From an uncultured archaeon (GTDB lineage Archaea; Thermoproteota; Nitrososphaeria; Nitrososphaerales; CALBXV01): 9,583 bases of DNA. The notes beneath the pieces were generated by a model that was given only the letters and a program-made list of their open reading frames with translations, was not told where the DNA came from and ran no database searches. This document shows positions 242 through 9,583 of the stretch, piece after piece. Positions within the stretch are counted from its first letter, which is position 1; each line of letters starts with the position of its first letter. The stretch covers positions 1 to 9,583 of the forward strand of contig CALBXV010000701.1 in the NCBI GenBank assembly GCA_937890045.1. Reading direction: 5' to 3'. Made by a program: the position numbers and the translations under genes.

Positions 242-268
242 GGGGGGTCTTTTGACCCCCCTCTTTTT
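242..268 (+). terminator. Intrinsic terminator after gene 23
   Basis: An 8-bp perfect stem (GGGGGGTC at 242-249 paired with GACCCCCC at 254-261) closes a TTTT loop and is followed by a T run at 264-268. In this AT-rich sequence such a GC-rich hairpin is conspicuous. It should end gene 23 transcription and isolate it from the next unit. Confidence 0.93.
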
Positions 269-273
269 ATTAT

Positions 274-281
274 TATAAATA
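274..281 (+). promoter_or_regulatory. T4-type late promoter (TATAAATA) for the outer-membrane-like gene
   Basis: This is an exact match to the T4 late-promoter octamer, recognised in T4 by RNA polymerase carrying gp55. It lies 5 nt beyond the T run of the preceding terminator. By the T4 rule, transcription would start about 6 nt downstream, near 287, giving a leader of roughly 50 nt to the ATG at 339. The gp55 homologue encoded later in this window is the likely specificity factor. Confidence 0.85.
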
Positions 282-326
282 TAAACAATTATAATGTTCT
301 TAGTGACAAATCAATCTAGGAGTTTT

Positions 327-333
327 AGGGAGG
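327..333 (+). promoter_or_regulatory. Ribosome binding site that fixes the start at 339
   Basis: AGGGAGG lies 5 nt before the ATG at 339. The earlier in-frame ATG at 294 has no comparable site and is only about 7 nt from the predicted transcription start. The protein from 339 begins with a clean signal peptide, which also favours this start. Confidence 0.8.
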
Positions 334-338
334 AATAT

Positions 339-1061
339 ATGAAAATATTTAAAAATATTCTCGTGGGAATGCTTGCAGTAGCTTTTATTGGAACTGCAAT
401 TAGTTATAAAAATGAAGTTGTTGCGGCAAGTACAGATTGGGAGATATCTGACCACAATTGGGATGTTAATTGGGAACAATCTGGATATGATATTGGTGTT
501 AATGTAAGAAATCAATATCGTTCTGATTATGACCATGCTGAGTTATCAATTAAACTTCGTCCAATGTTCTTAACACCATTTACTGTAGCAGTTCGTATTG
601 CTGAAGAAGATGGTGCTAGAGAATATCGGCCGACATTGACACAATCGGTAATTAATTGGGATATGCTAAAAGATGAAGAAGGTAATAAAGGACCGATTAG
701 TTTATCACTTGGACATAGAATCGAATACAGACACTATGAGGGCATCAATGCTCCGCCAAGTAATTGGTATTCAGATGGTGTAGATGCAAATTGGCGTTAC
801 AGAGGTATTATTACAGTGGGTCTTAATGTTTTAGATAATATTAATATCTGGGCAAGAGTTCAACCCCGCTTTGAATTTGGCGAAGGAAAAGAAAATGATT
901 TTGAGATTGATGATGTTAAAAATCAAGTTGGATTCAGTATAAATTTGGGTGACAACGCAACCTTTAGTCCATACGTTGAATATTTGATGGACGGTCAGGA
1001 CAATAACTTTGAACGAAAAGAAGTTATGGTTGGAACTAGACTAGCATTTAAATTAAATTAA
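339..1061 (+). CDS. Predicted outer-membrane beta-barrel (porin-like) protein with signal peptide
   Basis: The product is 240 aa. The N-terminus (MKIFKNILVGMLAVAFIGTA) has a short basic stretch and a hydrophobic core, as in a Sec signal peptide. Cleavage is plausible after residue 30 (VAA|S), though a site nearer residue 22 is possible. The rest has no long hydrophobic helix and shows alternating strand-like segments ending in charged turns, for example ISLSLGHRIEYRHYEG, IITVGLNVLDNINIWARVQP, ATFSPYVEYLMDG and EVMVGTRLAFKLN. This is the look of an outer-membrane barrel; a DUF2490-like or KdgM-type small porin is a guess from pattern only. The last residue is Asn, not the usual terminal Phe of a beta-signal. 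The gene is alone between two terminators with its own late promoter and a strong RBS, so it should be expressed late as a single unit. Alternatively it could be a periplasmic or secreted beta protein. Confidence 0.6.
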   Translation: MKIFKNILVGMLAVAFIGTAISYKNEVVAASTDWEISDHNWDVNWEQSGYDIGVNVRNQYRSDYDHAELSIKLRPMFLTPFTVAVRIAEEDGAREYRPTLTQSVINWDMLKDEEGNKGPISLSLGHRIEYRHYEGINAPPSNWYSDGVDANWRYRGIITVGLNVLDNINIWARVQPRFEFGEGKENDFEIDDVKNQVGFSINLGDNATFSPYVEYLMDGQDNNFERKEVMVGTRLAFKLN

Positions 1062-1080
1062 ATTGATTTAATTTGATTAA

Positions 1081-1106
1081 GGGAGGCTTTCGAGCCTCCC
1101 TTTTTT
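1081..1106 (+). terminator. Intrinsic terminator with UUCG tetraloop
   Basis: GGGAGGCT at 1081-1088 pairs perfectly with AGCCTCCC at 1093-1100 around a TTCG loop, followed by six Ts at 1101-1106. The UUCG loop is an especially stable tetraloop. It closes the outer-membrane-like gene 19 nt after its stop codon. Confidence 0.95.
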
Positions 1107-1817: not shown

Positions 1818-2249
1818 ATGAACCTAGAACAATTAAAAGAAGAAGCAAGAAAAGACCTCATAGTAGAAAATGAGGAACACCTTGATTCTGAATCCCTCAA
1901 AAACCAAAAAATAAAAGCAAAGTATCTTGAGCATAAAACAAGATATCAATTACTATTGCAAAAGGCCAATGGTGATTATCAACGTATGTACAGAGAAAAA
2001 TGGGAGTACTACGGTGGTAAGGCTGATGTCAAAGTTTATGTTGCAAAACCGTTTGACTTAAAAGTTTTAAAAGGTGATTTGGCAATGTATATTAGTTCTG
2101 ATGAAGAAGTTATTGCATTGATGGATAAGATTGGATATCTGGAAGTTGTAATAAAATATATTGATGGTGTTATTAAATCAATTGACAATCGCGGATGGGA
2201 TATTAAAAATGCAATTGAATGGAAAAAGTTTGAAGCAGGGATGATATGA
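1818..2249 (+). CDS. uvsY: UvsY recombination mediator protein
   Basis: The product is 143 aa (T4 UvsY is 137). In T4, UvsY loads the UvsX recombinase onto single-stranded DNA coated with gp32, so it drives recombination-dependent replication and repair in the cytoplasm. The N-terminus MNLEQLKEEARKDL lines up with T4 MRLEDLQEELKKDV. A basic segment with KWEYYGGKAD (61-70) corresponds to the T4 RLDYYSGRGD region. The C-terminus IKSIDNRGWDIKNAIEWKKF followed by EAG matches T4 IKSRGFAIKHIQ...FEAG. A TTG at 1803 is in frame, but the ATG at 1818 reproduces the family N-terminus. There is no good Shine-Dalgarno. Transcription could come from the TATAAATA at 1704. The stop overlaps the next gene by 4 nt (ATGA), suggesting translational coupling. 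Confidence 0.85.
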   Translation: MNLEQLKEEARKDLIVENEEHLDSESLKNQKIKAKYLEHKTRYQLLLQKANGDYQRMYREKWEYYGGKADVKVYVAKPFDLKVLKGDLAMYISSDEEVIALMDKIGYLEVVIKYIDGVIKSIDNRGWDIKNAIEWKKFEAGMI

Positions 2250-2794
2250 CTTGGTTAGTAGCAGATTATATTAAATATTATGAAGGTGTGGTTTCAAATG
2301 ACCAATGTTCTGAAATATTAAACTGCACTGAAACTGTATATGTTCCTTCTACATATTCTAGTAATGATGGTAAGGTTGAAAGTGAAGAACGAGTTCGTAT
2401 GGATGAGTGTTGGGTCAAAAATGATAGTATATTGTGGCCTACTATATTAAGTTGCTATGAAGAAGTCATAAAAAGATATTCATCAGATTTCCCTTTATTC
2501 ACTGTACAACGTACAACAGATTTTAGAATTAACAGATATGCATCAGGTGGGTTTATGTCTAAGCATTGTGATAATATACATCATAGTCATGGTCAACAGT
2601 ATGGATACCCACAAGTAACTGCTCTCTTATACCCTAATGATGATTACGAAGGTGGAGAATTTTTTGTATCAGATCATCAATATTTACCAAAGAAGGGTTC
2701 ATCTATAGTATTCCCTTCTAACTTTATGTACCCCCATGAAGCAAAGGCTATTACCAAAGGGACTCGTTGGAGTATAGTTACATGGCTGATGTAA
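2246..2794 (+). CDS. Fe(II)/2-oxoglutarate-dependent oxygenase, prolyl-4-hydroxylase type
   Basis: The product is 182 aa. This family uses Fe(II), O2 and 2-oxoglutarate to hydroxylate a substrate, often protein side chains; the substrate here cannot be read from sequence. The iron ligands are visible: HCD at H107-x-D109 and the distal H164 in YPHEA. R174 in TKGTRWSIVTW fits the 2-oxoglutarate carboxylate site. The LLYPNDDYEGGEFF segment (128-140) is typical of the P4Hc-like core, and the length suits a single catalytic domain. The gene starts at the ATG in ATGA, sharing 4 nt with uvsY, and has a GCAGGG ribosome site about 5 nt upstream. It overlaps the next oxygenase gene by 13 nt. All catalytic residues are present, so it should be active. 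Confidence 0.85.
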   Translation: MTWLVADYIKYYEGVVSNDQCSEILNCTETVYVPSTYSSNDGKVESEERVRMDECWVKNDSILWPTILSCYEEVIKRYSSDFPLFTVQRTTDFRINRYASGGFMSKHCDNIHHSHGQQYGYPQVTALLYPNDDYEGGEFFVSDHQYLPKKGSSIVFPSNFMYPHEAKAITKGTRWSIVTWLM

Positions 2795-3375
2795 AACTTT
2801 ACAGATGTTTTCCAACAACAGTTGGTGAGTTTTCATATTATCCCAATGACATAGAAATGAAGGATATGATTTCTCATATTACAACCACGAAAAAAAATCA
2901 TGGGTATCATACCGAAGATGATTTACATACGATATCTTATTTTGCTGATTTTCGGGATGAGATATTAAATGTTAATAAAACATATATGAAAGATTTAAAA
3001 TACGAATATGACAAATTAGAAATTACTGGTATGTGGGCAAATAAATTACATGTGGGAGAGGCTCATCCACCACATACACATTCAAATAATTTCTTATCTG
3101 GTGTATATTATTTAAAAGCTTCAAATAATACTTCTCCTATACAATTTTTTGATCCAAGACCCCAAGCAAATGTTTTACGACCAAGAAATGAACCAATTTG
3201 GGAAAATTCAAGTATGTTGCAATTTGCTTCTGTTAAAGGAATAGGATTTATTTTCCCATCATGGTTACTGCATTGGGTGCCACCCACACAAGATGAGCGT
3301 ATAAGTATCTCTTGGAATATAATTGTGAGAGGTAATTACGGCGAACCTGATACATTACAAAATGCATATATCTAA
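2782..3375 (+). CDS. Second 2OG-Fe(II) oxygenase family protein (TIGR02466-like)
   Basis: The product is 197 aa, from a different branch of the oxygenase superfamily than its upstream neighbour. It looks like the TIGR02466/2OG-FeII_Oxy_5 family: MWANKLHVGEAHPPHTHSNN (84-103), then LSGVYYL (105-111), IQFFDPRP (120-127) and FPSWLLHWVPP (158-168), then R173 in DERISISWN. Likely metal ligands come from the H95/H98/H100 cluster with H164 distal, and R173 is a candidate 2-oxoglutarate contact; which of the clustered histidines bind iron is uncertain. A TTG at 2767 is in frame, but the ATG at 2782 is preferred, with GGAG about 9 nt before it. The gene overlaps the upstream gene by 13 nt and uvsW by 14 nt, so all are co-translated in one operon. 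Substrate unknown. Confidence 0.75.
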   Translation: MADVKLYRCFPTTVGEFSYYPNDIEMKDMISHITTTKKNHGYHTEDDLHTISYFADFRDEILNVNKTYMKDLKYEYDKLEITGMWANKLHVGEAHPPHTHSNNFLSGVYYLKASNNTSPIQFFDPRPQANVLRPRNEPIWENSSMLQFASVKGIGFIFPSWLLHWVPPTQDERISISWNIIVRGNYGEPDTLQNAYI

Positions 3376-5329: not shown

Positions 5330-5353
5330 GATATATCTTTTGAAGGAATAATA

Positions 5354-5911
5354 ATGGCTAAAAAATCCAAGGCCGCGCATTACGTTAACAATAAACAATT
5401 TTTAGAAGCTATGGTTGAATGGCGAGAGAGGTGTGCTGAGGCAGAAAATATCGGTGAACTTCAACCACCAGTTACAAATTACATAGGTGAATGTTTTCTA
5501 AAAATTGCTACTCATTTATCATATAGACCTAATTTTATTAACTATACATACAGGGATGAAATGATATCAGATGGGATCGAGAACTGTTTACAATATGTTA
5601 AGAATTTCAATCCAGAGAAGTCGCAGAACCCTTTCGCATACTTCACGCAAATCATCTACTACGCCTTCTTGCGAAGGATCACCAAAGAAAAAAAACAAAC
5701 CCATGTCAGAAACAAAATAATAGAAAATATACAATATGAGTCTTGGACAACTATGAAAGGTGATGATACTGTATATTCTGTACAAGGTTTTGATCCCAAT
5801 ATAATGCTTCCAGATGAGGATGTATATAAACCAAAAAAGAAATTAGTAGATAAATCTAAAGGTTTAGAGCCTTTCATGGAGTCGAATATTGAAGATAGCA
5901 ATAATAACTGA
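5354..5911 (+). CDS. 55: Late-transcription sigma factor gp55
   Basis: The product is 185 aa, the same length as T4 gp55. In T4, gp55 is a minimal sigma factor that directs host core RNA polymerase to TATAAATA promoters and works with gp33 and the sliding clamp. Evidence: N-terminal HYVNNKQFLEAMVEW (9-23) matches T4 YVNNKELLQAIIDW. The core EMISDGIENCLQYVKNFNPE (69-88) and QNPFAYFTQIIYYAFLRRIT (91-110), then KEKK, match the T4 sigma region 2-like segment. The C-terminal GLEPFMES (170-177) sits where T4 has its hydrophobic clamp-binding tail, but the match is weak. The ATG at 5354 has GAAGGA 6 nt upstream; an in-frame ATG at 5318 lies inside the promoter. The end overlaps gene 47 by 23 nt. Three TATAAATA sites in this window are its expected targets. 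Confidence 0.9.
   Translation: MAKKSKAAHYVNNKQFLEAMVEWRERCAEAENIGELQPPVTNYIGECFLKIATHLSYRPNFINYTYRDEMISDGIENCLQYVKNFNPEKSQNPFAYFTQIIYYAFLRRITKEKKQTHVRNKIIENIQYESWTTMKGDDTVYSVQGFDPNIMLPDEDVYKPKKKLVDKSKGLEPFMESNIEDSNNN
5878..5881 (+). promoter_or_regulatory. Ribosome binding site supporting the TTG start of gene 47
   Basis: GGAG inside the end of gene 55 lies 7 nt before the TTG at 5889. It supports initiation at this non-ATG codon and ties gene 47 translation to gene 55. Confidence 0.6.
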
Positions 5912-6947: not shown

Positions 6948-8653
6948 TTCATTTTAAATATGTTAGGTGGAAGAATTTTTTATCAACTGGTAATAACTTC
7001 ACAGAAATTCAACTAGACAGAAATCCAACAACTTTAATCATTGGTGAGAACGGAGCAGGCAAGTCTACTATTCTTGATGCATTGTGCTTTGGTTTGTTTG
7101 GTAAACCTTTTCGGGGCATTAATAAACCACAACTATTAAATTCTGTCAACGATAGTGGATGTATTGTTGAGGTAGAGTTCAAGATTGGTTCCAAGGATAT
7201 TAAAGTGATTCGTGGTATCAAGCCAACTGTCTTTGAGATATACATCAATGGTAAGATGTATAATCAGGATGCACATTCTAGAGACTATCAGAAGTATCTT
7301 GAACAACAAATTCTAAAACTAAATTATCGTAGTTTTACTCAAGTTGTGATTCTTGGATCGTCTACATTCGTTCCATTTATGCAGCTGAAGGCTCGTCACC
7401 GTAGAGAGGTGGTTGAGGAGATTCTTGACATCCAAATATTCTCGTTGATGAATATGTTATTGAAGCAAAAACTCAAAACCATATATGATGATATTCGTGA
7501 TATAGATTATAAGTTTGAACTCACCACAGAAAAGATTCAATTACAAAATCAGTATATTGATGATGTAAAGAAAAATAAAGATAAAATTATTACAGAAAAG
7601 ACTAGTCTTATTGATAGTAATGAAGAAGAGATTTTCTCAAGAAAGTCTGTCATTGAAAAACTTCAACAGGAGAACGATAGTCTACTAAGTAAAATTTCTG
7701 ATGATGAGAAAGTTAAAAAGAACTATAATAAGCTTAAGGATATAAAATCTACTCTAGTAGAGAAACATAAAGCACATTCTAAAGTTGTTGGTTTCTTTGA
7801 GCATAATGATGATTGTCCTACCTGTCAGCAGCACATAGATGAAATTTTCAAGAAGGAAATGATATCTAATAGACAGAAAGATGTAATCAAATTTTCAAAT
7901 GGTCTGAAGGAACTTGAAGAAGAACTAAAGAAATCAAAAGAGAGACAAAAAGAGATTTCTGATATTGCAAATAAAATACGAGAGAATGAAGTACAGATTG
8001 CAACGGATAATAGTTCTGTTGTACAACTGGAAAAGTTTAACTCCACTTTGGAGGCTGAATGTGCTCAATTAGAAACTGGTGATGTAAGTAAATCTGATTA
8101 TAAGAAATTGAAAGAATTGAAAACCGAATTAACAGGAATAGATGATCAAAAAACAAAACTTAAAGAAGATAAAACTTATGCTGAAGCGGCAAAGAATATG
8201 CTACAGGATACAGGTATCAAGACCAAGATTATTAAGCAGTATCTTCCTATTATGAATAGGTTGATCAATACCTATTTGACTTCTATGGAGTTTTATGTGA
8301 ACTTCACATTGAATGAGAGTTTTGGGGAAACCATTAAATCAAGATATCGTGATGAGTTTACTTATGATTCGTTTAGTGAAGGTGAGAAGATGCGTATTGA
8401 CCTTGCATTGCTCTTTACATGGAGAGCCATCGCAAAGATGAAGAACAGTACCAATACAAATCTGTTAATGTTGGATGAGATTTTCGATAGTTCTCTGGAC
8501 AGTACAGGTACAGATGAGTTCCTAAAGATTCTGAATACTCTGGGTGATGAGAACGTATTTGTGATTAGTCATAAACAGGATGTGCTGGTAGATAAATTTA
8601 GAAGCACAATTAAATTTGAGAAGGTGAAAAACTTTAGTCATGTGGTGGAATAA
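6944..8653 (+). CDS. 46: gp46, Rad50/SbcC-type ATPase subunit
   Basis: The product is 569 aa (T4 gp46 is 560). It is the SMC-like ATPase partner of gp47 in the end-resection complex. The ATP-binding head is split: Walker A GENGAGKST at 34-42 followed by FGLFGKPFRG, and at the far end the ABC signature SFSEGEKMRID (476-486), Walker B LLMLDE (507-512) and the H-loop His543 in ISHK. Long coiled-coil arms (about 175-280 and 300-410) flank the zinc hook CPTC at 291-294. Residues TGIKTKIIKQYLPIMNRLIN match T4 SGIKGAIIKKYIPLFNKQIN. Translation starts at TTG 6944, overlapping the gene 47 stop in TTGA, with AGGA 9 nt upstream. The nearest ATG (6960) is out of frame. All catalytic motifs look intact. 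It ends in TAATG with the next gene. Confidence 0.93.
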   Translation: MIHFKYVRWKNFLSTGNNFTEIQLDRNPTTLIIGENGAGKSTILDALCFGLFGKPFRGINKPQLLNSVNDSGCIVEVEFKIGSKDIKVIRGIKPTVFEIYINGKMYNQDAHSRDYQKYLEQQILKLNYRSFTQVVILGSSTFVPFMQLKARHRREVVEEILDIQIFSLMNMLLKQKLKTIYDDIRDIDYKFELTTEKIQLQNQYIDDVKKNKDKIITEKTSLIDSNEEEIFSRKSVIEKLQQENDSLLSKISDDEKVKKNYNKLKDIKSTLVEKHKAHSKVVGFFEHNDDCPTCQQHIDEIFKKEMISNRQKDVIKFSNGLKELEEELKKSKERQKEISDIANKIRENEVQIATDNSSVVQLEKFNSTLEAECAQLETGDVSKSDYKKLKELKTELTGIDDQKTKLKEDKTYAEAAKNMLQDTGIKTKIIKQYLPIMNRLINTYLTSMEFYVNFTLNESFGETIKSRYRDEFTYDSFSEGEKMRIDLALLFTWRAIAKMKNSTNTNLLMLDEIFDSSLDSTGTDEFLKILNTLGDENVFVISHKQDVLVDKFRSTIKFEKVKNFSHVVE

Positions 8654-9174
8654 TGGGTAAACGAAGCGACTTTGAACGAAAACCAAGAGATTTCTATCCT
8701 ACACCAAGAGAAGCAATAGAACCTCTTATTCCACATTTACCAGAAACAGGACTTTTTGCTGAACCTTGTGCTGGGGATGGCCGACTTATTGATTGTGTAG
8801 AAGAATTATCTAATTTACATTGTTATTTAGCAGTAGATATTGAACCTCGCAGAGATGACATAGGAGAAGGAGATGTTCTTACAGTTGATGTAAATGGGTG
8901 TGATTTGATAATAACAAATCCGCCATGGGATAGAAAGATATTACATCCAATGATTGAACATCTATCAAAACAAAAACCTACTTGGTTGTTATTTGATGCA
9001 GATTGGATGCATACTAAACAGAGTAGACCATACCTTTTAGCTTTACATAAGATTATAAGTGTAGGTAGAATTAAGTGGTTTGGTGATACTACAGGTAAAG
9101 ACAATTGTGCTTGGTATTTGTTTGATGCACAGACACCTTCAATTATGGGTACAACTTTTTATGGAAGAACATAA
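8653..9174 (+). CDS. Short N6-adenine-type DNA methyltransferase-like protein
   Basis: The product is 173 aa with a class I SAM-dependent methyltransferase fold. The SAM-binding motif I is FAEPCAGDGRL (35-45), an acidic VDIEP (61-65) suits the ribose-binding strand end, and the catalytic motif IV is DLIITNPPW (84-92). The NPPW tetrad is typical of N6-adenine or N4-cytosine amino-methyltransferases. The N-terminal DFYPTPREAIEPLIPHL (13-29) is also seen in phage enzymes of this type. It is short: little room exists for a separate target-recognition domain, so specificity may be relaxed or the target may differ from a Dam site. The segment WLLFDADWMHTKQSRPYLLA (111-130) replaces the usual region after motif IV. 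The ATG at 8653 shares one base with the gene 46 stop (TAATG) and has GGTGGA upstream. DNA modification against host restriction is a reasonable inference, not shown. Confidence 0.75.
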   Translation: MGKRSDFERKPRDFYPTPREAIEPLIPHLPETGLFAEPCAGDGRLIDCVEELSNLHCYLAVDIEPRRDDIGEGDVLTVDVNGCDLIITNPPWDRKILHPMIEHLSKQKPTWLLFDADWMHTKQSRPYLLALHKIISVGRIKWFGDTTGKDNCAWYLFDAQTPSIMGTTFYGRT

Positions 9175-9175
9175 T

Positions 9176-9583
9176 ATGGCAACATACACATTACTTGAAA
9201 ATGATAATATAGCTCTTACTATTCCTTTGTCTGGATGTAGTGAGGATTTGGACAGAAAAGAACTGAAGGAAAATCTGATAGAAACCATGAAGAATTTTCA
9301 TGGAATCGGGTTGTCAGCAAATCAGTGTGGCATTATGGAACGTGTTTTTGTGATGTATTCAGATATAAAGAAAAAAAAGATTATTGTTTGTTTTAATCCT
9401 CAAGTTATAAGTGAAGGCACAGAGATGGTTACGATGGATGAAGGTTGTTTGACTTGGCCTGGCATATGGATAAAGATTCGTAGACCAGATCATATTGCCT
9501 GCACTTTTGAAGATGAGAATGGGGAATTGAATAGGGTAACGATGATGGGGTTAGAATGTCGTATTTTCCAGCATGAGATGGAT
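9176..9583 (+). CDS. def: Peptide deformylase (3' truncated by window end)
   Basis: 136 codons are visible and the frame is open at the window end. Peptide deformylase removes the formyl group from the N-terminal methionine of nascent proteins using a bound metal. All three family motifs appear: motif 1 GIGLSANQCG (43-52), motif 2 EGCLT (89-93) with metal ligand C91, and the start of motif 3 QHEMD (132-136) with H133 and E134; the second His should be the next residue outside the window. The spelling EGCLTWPG differs from the common bacterial EGCLSVPG type. The ATG at 9176 comes 1 nt after the methyltransferase stop, with GGAAGA about 8 nt before. Marine T4-like phages often carry deformylases; in cyanophages one has been linked to photosystem D1 processing, but nothing here shows a photosynthetic host. 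Whether the C-terminal helix of bacterial enzymes is present cannot be seen. Confidence 0.92.
   Translation, partial: MATYTLLENDNIALTIPLSGCSEDLDRKELKENLIETMKNFHGIGLSANQCGIMERVFVMYSDIKKKKIIVCFNPQVISEGTEMVTMDEGCLTWPGIWIKIRRPDHIACTFEDENGELNRVTMMGLECRIFQHEMD

Follow-up and report, generated by a model that had tools for sequence, protein, structure and literature searches.

What does a gene for a 240-residue protein do when it stands alone between the capsid and tail genes of a T4-like phage? The question is raised by contig CALBXV010000701.1 (assembly GCA_937890045.1), of which the whole stretch analysed, 9,583 nucleotides (the window), is by gene content a 9.6-kb fragment of a T4-like phage genome. 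The gene encodes a candidate outer-membrane channel protein (OMP), and its cassette is real, well formed and moderately surprising. The favoured reading, to which we give a probability of about one half, is that OMP is a phage cargo gene for an outer-membrane diffusion channel through which a solute, most likely phosphate, would enter the cell. Solute uptake is favoured, with phosphate as the most likely solute, since sister phages have phosphate-transport genes in this slot and such genes adjoin some OMP relatives. The cassette and the borders of its slot are composed as follows.

1–218, + strand: C-terminal part of the major capsid protein gp23 (PF07068, E 2.3e-19; phrog_138, E 1.5e-21), the left border of the slot.
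242–261, + strand: terminator downstream of gp23, an 8-pair G+C-rich hairpin with a T run.
274–281, + strand: T4-type late promoter element of the cassette, TATAAATA.
339–1061, + strand: OMP, 240 residues, with a signal peptide predicted at about residues 1–30 and a barrel at about 37–239.
1079–1102, + strand: terminator of the cassette, a 10-pair hairpin with a T run; the related loci L002 and L003 have similar hairpins.
1111–1118, + strand: late promoter element of the next gene, TATAAATA, the right border of the slot.
1124–1708, + strand: tail-tube/tail-completion-like protein gene, adjoining the slot (phrog_45, E 4.5e-33).

The initial annotation placed the gene alone between two terminators, with its own promoter and a strong ribosome-binding site, in the manner of a moron, and this layout is borne out. 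Terminator-like sites number nine in the window against 3.7 expected from shuffled sequences (standard deviation 1.8), and hairpins downstream of gp23 also occur in L002, L003, L030, L032, L147, L186, L209 and phage Melnitz. The open reading frame (ORF) is preceded by the ribosome-binding site AGGGAGGA, starts with ATG at 339 and stops at 1059–1061; with the alternative in-frame start, ATG 294, the protein would have 255 residues, but most aligned homologues start at or near 339. The promoter element lies at the same place upstream of the OMP gene in L002 and L003, and upstream of the next gene in Melnitz. A third copy of TATAAATA is found at 1704–1711 on the + strand; the count itself was rejected as significant, since three copies compare with 1.66 expected and 47 of 200 shuffles give at least three.

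Gene order is the same in L002 (OMP 87% identical) and L003 (72%). Melnitz and L147 lack the cassette and have gp23, a single terminator, the late promoter element and the tail gene, which in L147 is 92% identical to that of the window. The presence of the cassette in the first pair and its absence from the second suggest that promoter, gene and terminator were gained or lost as a unit; at this one site it is also absent from L148 and L149. Judged from these comparisons, a moron-like cassette with its own predicted promoter and terminator is supported. In L002 the cassette is separated from the tail gene by a further tiny ORF (2365–2448) with, by eye, four Cys in two CxxC pairs.

The predicted protein is real, as first annotated: 102 homologues were found at E ≤ 1e-3, and the ratio of nonsynonymous to synonymous substitution (dN/dS) is 0.12–0.41 in the six pairs among the window, L002, L003 and L004. 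For the tail gene it is 0.11–0.25 in three pairs. By this measure the OMP gene is under purifying selection, somewhat weaker than that on the tail gene. The outer-membrane-type barrel proposed in the initial annotation is likewise supported as a prediction, by AlphaFold2, by structure comparison, in which the fold matches the KdgM/NanC-like small barrels, and by the in/out alternation of hydrophobicity in 11 of 11 predicted strands. VIA-align was used for the fold because Foldseek matches of the model were weak (VDAC first, BamA next; TM 0.22–0.41, root-mean-square deviation 8–17); the BFVD matches were also weak, the best with E 4.4e-3.

The KdgM/NanC small porins (4fqe, 4pr7, 2wjr, 2wjq and 8xua) share the predicted small-barrel fold, but their sequence profiles do not recognise the window OMP. 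The latter matches no Pfam family at E ≤ 1, with no match to PF10677 (DUF2490) or PF07396 (Porin_O_P), and none among PHROGs; tblastn against 50,697 phage records gave no match at E ≤ 1 for it or for its relative P0098. A sequence search of solved structures with the OMP alignment returned no porin, only five rows of which the best, E 0.45, is an unrelated protein. One relative, P0087 (45% identical), does reach the curated Pfam score of DUF2490, a family of unknown function (31.1 against 29.8 bits); seven other tested relatives score 15.9–28.8, below the cutoff, and P0023 has no match. Phage_OMP (PF24653), a cyanophage outer-membrane-like barrel, is also a phage-encoded barrel family, and only two OMP relatives match it, below the cutoff (E 0.1 and 0.26). 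The window OMP is small-porin-like, yet by its own score a member of no Pfam family. A scan of genome contigs with the family alignment gave 85 pattern matches, none of them a relative by tblastn; as it used only two peptide patterns, absence of the family from bacteria is unproven.

Several features vary within the family. In many relatives the signal region contains, by eye, a lipobox-like Cys (e.g. LVAC followed by G), where the window (362–432) has Tyr; lipoproteins, or a change to another signal peptidase, are conceivable in some clades. Phe or Tyr is the usual final residue of barrel proteins, and most distant relatives end in one of them, while the window clade ends in Lys-Leu-Asn (1056–1058 in the window). 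The predicted protein P0085 (258 residues) is likely an assembly chimera, in which the beginning of a DctP-type solute-binding protein is fused to a central segment from an OMP relative.

The location between gp23 and a tail gene, together with the late promoter, would suit an ordinary structural protein of the virion. This is highly improbable given the signal peptide and barrel-type fold, the absence of the gene from close sisters and the position of several relatives outside the capsid module. The initial annotation asked whether homologues always adjoin gp23; among the 23 loci that the OMP alignment retrieved, which form the locus set used below, only L002 and L003 show this arrangement.

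The slot itself was surveyed by a scan with the tail gene, in which the best 80 of 135 loci were taken and both borders were found in 70; + strand ORFs of 45 residues or more were counted as cargo. By this filter 42 slots have no ORF and 28 are occupied, although L166 and L220–L225, counted as empty, have gaps of 215–537 bases without a listed ORF, and small ORFs of the L178/L179 type count as cargo. Genes for phosphate uptake occupy seven of the 28 in sister phages: PiT permease in three (two with a carbamoyltransferase), Na/Pi cotransporter in three (one with a carbamoyltransferase) and PstS in one. OMP occupies two, a weakly NMT1-like protein four, an 84-residue protein four and other proteins five; after collapsing contigs at 95% identity over 2 kb, the last three classes fall to three, two and three, respectively. 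A border is missing in ten of the 80 loci, two of which (L157 and L158) have PiT directly upstream of the tail gene. Among loci from a separate PiT search, L031, L032 and L035 have both borders, while in L030, L069 and L074 gp23 is followed by PiT and the contig ends before the tail gene. In named phages the slot holds a 2OG-oxygenase-like protein (AG-345-E02), an 85-residue protein (HTVC008M) or a protein without a Pfam match (S-SSM7), and it is empty in S-SKS1. On comparison of these loci (L030–L035, L069, L074 and L147–L225), the slot between gp23 and the tail gene is a cargo hotspot in which genes are exchanged at one site.

Phosphate genes also adjoin OMP relatives in some other phages. 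In six of the 23 loci, representing five of 12 groups at 95% identity, one lies within 1.5 kb of OMP, with none farther off in those loci: PiT in L004, L005 and L023, and PstS in L018, L022 and L024. PstS (L018 and L022) or PiT (L023) is directly upstream of OMP, and the preceding ORFs of these three loci look alike by eye. A whole-record search of 11 records gave no additional PiT or PstS. In L062, one of 47 loci from the PiT search and for that reason outside the count of six, a divergent OMP overlaps the start of PiT by four bases; its E-value, 3.3e-15, is that of the first profile round, the iterated profile having contained L062 itself.

In L004 and L005 PiT is downstream of OMP, and a lysozyme-like gene lies upstream (PF00959 in L004, by eye in L005). 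The latter, with the late promoter, could point to a factor for lysis or permeability that acts as infection ends, a function for which phage CsgG pores have been proposed in passages of PMC9004378. The PiT gene downstream in these two loci argues against such a role. The signal peptide and barrel are porin-like, unlike known spanins or holins, and a lysis factor seems very unlikely.

PiT-like permeases are common in uncultured viral contigs (L029–L146), where 94 of 97 stretches contained relatives and 80 were kept. No match to the phage PiT was obtained by tblastn in the 50,697 phage records (E ≤ 1e-5), in PHROGs (three proteins) or, with the PiT alignment, among sequences of solved structures (E ≤ 0.1); Foldseek gave nothing at E ≤ 0.001, and 6l85 appeared only in a second look. 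PstS adjoins PiT in L053, L071 and L117. Of 100 PiT ORFs that have another ORF no more than 700 bases upstream, three are preceded by KdgM-like OMPs; nine distinct neighbours of other kinds look like signal-peptide proteins, and some of these, several in number, are clearly non-barrel. Most PiT loci have no such neighbour. Directly upstream of PiT stand a Porin_O_P (PF07396) protein in L066 (3784–4968) and, in L041 (4001–4909) and L044 (4000–4908), a 302-residue signal-peptide protein that ends in Phe and has no Pfam match; a 122-residue signal-peptide protein ending in Phe lies beside PiT in L117 (2190–2558).

Upstream regions were scored for Pho boxes with the E. coli consensus. The controls were 1073 dereplicated upstream regions from the loci in hand, five of which score at least 12 and three at least 13; the P values are rough, related sequences not being fully independent. 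Regions upstream of PiT are enriched (12 of 67 score at least 12; rank test P 2.6e-9), and rank tests gave P 0.0015 for three PstS regions and P 0.025 for two Na/Pi regions. Pho-box-like repeats precede two OMP relatives, those of L062 (14.5, the top of all scores) and of L013 (13.0), where OMP is alone among opposite-strand genes; L002 and L003 score 9.0 and 10.0. A candidate Pho box of the L032 PiT gene was rejected, its score being 9.0; by eye the region has TTGACA and a TATTAT-like element.

From this genetic company, a role in phosphate uptake is the best-supported function of OMP. On this view, a T4-like phage with relatives among ocean phages has an exchangeable slot, and the cassette in it would be cargo, an auxiliary metabolic gene. 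OMP would be transcribed late, exported and folded as a KdgM/NanC-like barrel of about 12 strands in the outer membrane of the host, where as a diffusion channel it would raise the entry of a solute, most likely phosphate, into the infected cell for the making of new viruses. It would provide the outer-membrane step, and the later steps would fall to periplasmic PstS and an inner-membrane PiT or Na/Pi cotransporter, for which other phages have genes, either in this slot or beside OMP relatives. The fold prediction and the linkage are in hand; insertion into the outer membrane, pore activity, phosphate as the solute and a benefit to the phage are what we infer.

Several observations weigh against phosphate uptake. 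No phosphate gene is present in the window, and 17 of the 23 OMP loci have none within 1.5 kb; six of those 17 (L015–L017 and L019–L021) have an L019-like gene set, followed in L019 by csgF/csgG. Cargo unrelated to phosphate also occupies the slot, and no single kind is as frequent there as carbamoyltransferase alone (six of 28). Upstream regions of OMP as a class are not enriched in Pho boxes (13 regions, P 0.19), and the window OMP lacks one, with a score of 9.0, below the control mean, and a shuffle fraction of 0.88. The predicted lumen, with positions deduced from strand parity, is charge-balanced in the window OMP (14 K/R against 13 D/E) and clearly basic only in distant relatives, with up to 21 K/R against 10 D/E. 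Pfam matches of PiT are below cutoff and its AlphaFold2 model is modest (pLDDT 68). Finally, the late promoter of the window copy is odd timing for uptake, seemingly late for DNA synthesis. The L019 neighbourhood comprises csgF, csgG and a curlin-repeat protein (PF10614, PF03783 and PF07012), and the L020 ORFs look alike by eye.

The 17 loci without a phosphate gene give more weight to a channel for another solute (acidic oligosaccharides, sulfate or others) or for general permeability, the link with phosphate then reflecting only shared nutrient cargo. The same fold evidence would apply, KdgM/NanC carry acidic oligosaccharides according to the titles of their structures, and other metabolic cargo in the slot and the csgF/csgG neighbourhood of some relatives agree with it. 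The PiT family includes sulfate carriers, and the L032 PiT has one weak NCBIfam match to a sulfate permease. Such a channel nevertheless appears somewhat unlikely in view of the three unrelated phosphate gene families in the slot, PstS or PiT beside relatives and the Pho-box-like repeats before two of them.

The late promoter, with the predicted surface location, could also indicate superinfection exclusion or receptor masking by a barrel that hides or replaces a receptor. Some phages do encode outer-membrane proteins that alter receptors; Lc of the temperate lambdoid phage PA-2 is reportedly a general trimeric porin tied to a receptor change. The linkage with phosphate genes would be unexpected for this function, and conservation is spread over the barrel (surface loops not taken separately), which make it quite unlikely. 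Of the functions offered in the initial annotation, altered permeability is carried forward by the comparative evidence in the form of solute uptake, most likely of phosphate; for masking, exclusion and lysis we found no specific evidence, either in favour or excluding them.

The timing may be less of an obstacle to phosphate uptake than it seems. According to passages of PMC10976474, Synechococcus phages without pstS at low phosphate had fewer progeny and delayed lysis with unimpaired genome replication, while the pstS-carrying phages named there showed no lysis delay. A late phosphate supply may still pay.

A broader proposal, which we advance tentatively and with some doubt, is that T4-like phages of this group carry an interchangeable kit for phosphate import across the whole envelope, comprising OMP as a new family of outer-membrane phosphate channels, periplasmic PstS and inner-membrane PiT or Na/Pi carriers. 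Its pieces would lie in the gp23 slot or next to one another, some under host PhoB, each phage supplying whichever one is limiting in its host. Phage auxiliary genes that serve to acquire phosphate, namely pstS and phoA in cyanophages and pit and pst in soil phages, are described in passages of PMC3037559, PMC10976474 and PMC10987575. The phage phosphate genes in those passages belong to the periplasm or inner membrane or encode enzymes or regulators, whereas the candidate would act in the outer membrane; a term search of the main texts of the three papers did not find 'porin'. Outer-membrane pores of related phages, the CsgGF curli pores of pelagimyophages and Melnitz (passages of PMC7029224 and PMC9004378), belong to an unrelated protein family with other proposed functions, although some OMP relatives share their neighbourhood. 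No paper on a 'phage-encoded porin' was found in a search that covered few subscription journals and no preprints; an earlier description may exist.

In the window, the end of gp23, OMP and the tail-tube/tail-completion-like gene are followed by UvsY, two 2OG-Fe(II) oxygenases, a helicase, a small conserved protein, gp55, gp47, gp46, a DNA methyltransferase-like protein and peptide deformylase. At the position of the tail gene, S-SSM7 and HTVC008M have a gene annotated as gp3/tail completion, and the helicase is a homologue of the one that relatives carry at the UvsW position. The nearest phage records for gp46 are Methylophilales phage Melnitz (60%) and Pelagibacter phage HTVC008M (52%), the closest relatives, on account of which the phage is called marine. 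No Rfam family (gathering score) or tRNA was found in the window. Other features are the following.

2246–3375: two distinct 2OG-Fe(II) oxygenase genes (PF13640 and PF13759) with a head-to-tail overlap, between UvsY and the helicase.
5351–5911: late sigma factor gp55 (phrog_234, E 4.3e-63).
8653–9583: 173-residue DNA methyltransferase-like protein (phrog_799), then peptide deformylase (PF01327), truncated at the window end.

What each phage adds for its host can be read easily from the slot behind gp23, and through the Pho-box-like repeats the phosphate idea becomes testable by expression and phosphate-dependent growth. If the favoured reading is true, OMP would be the outer-membrane member of viral phosphate acquisition, and in water poor in phosphate the outer membrane would become a candidate bottleneck for infection. 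A lytic virus would then install an outer-membrane channel of its own, and viral control of nutrient uptake would start at the cell surface.
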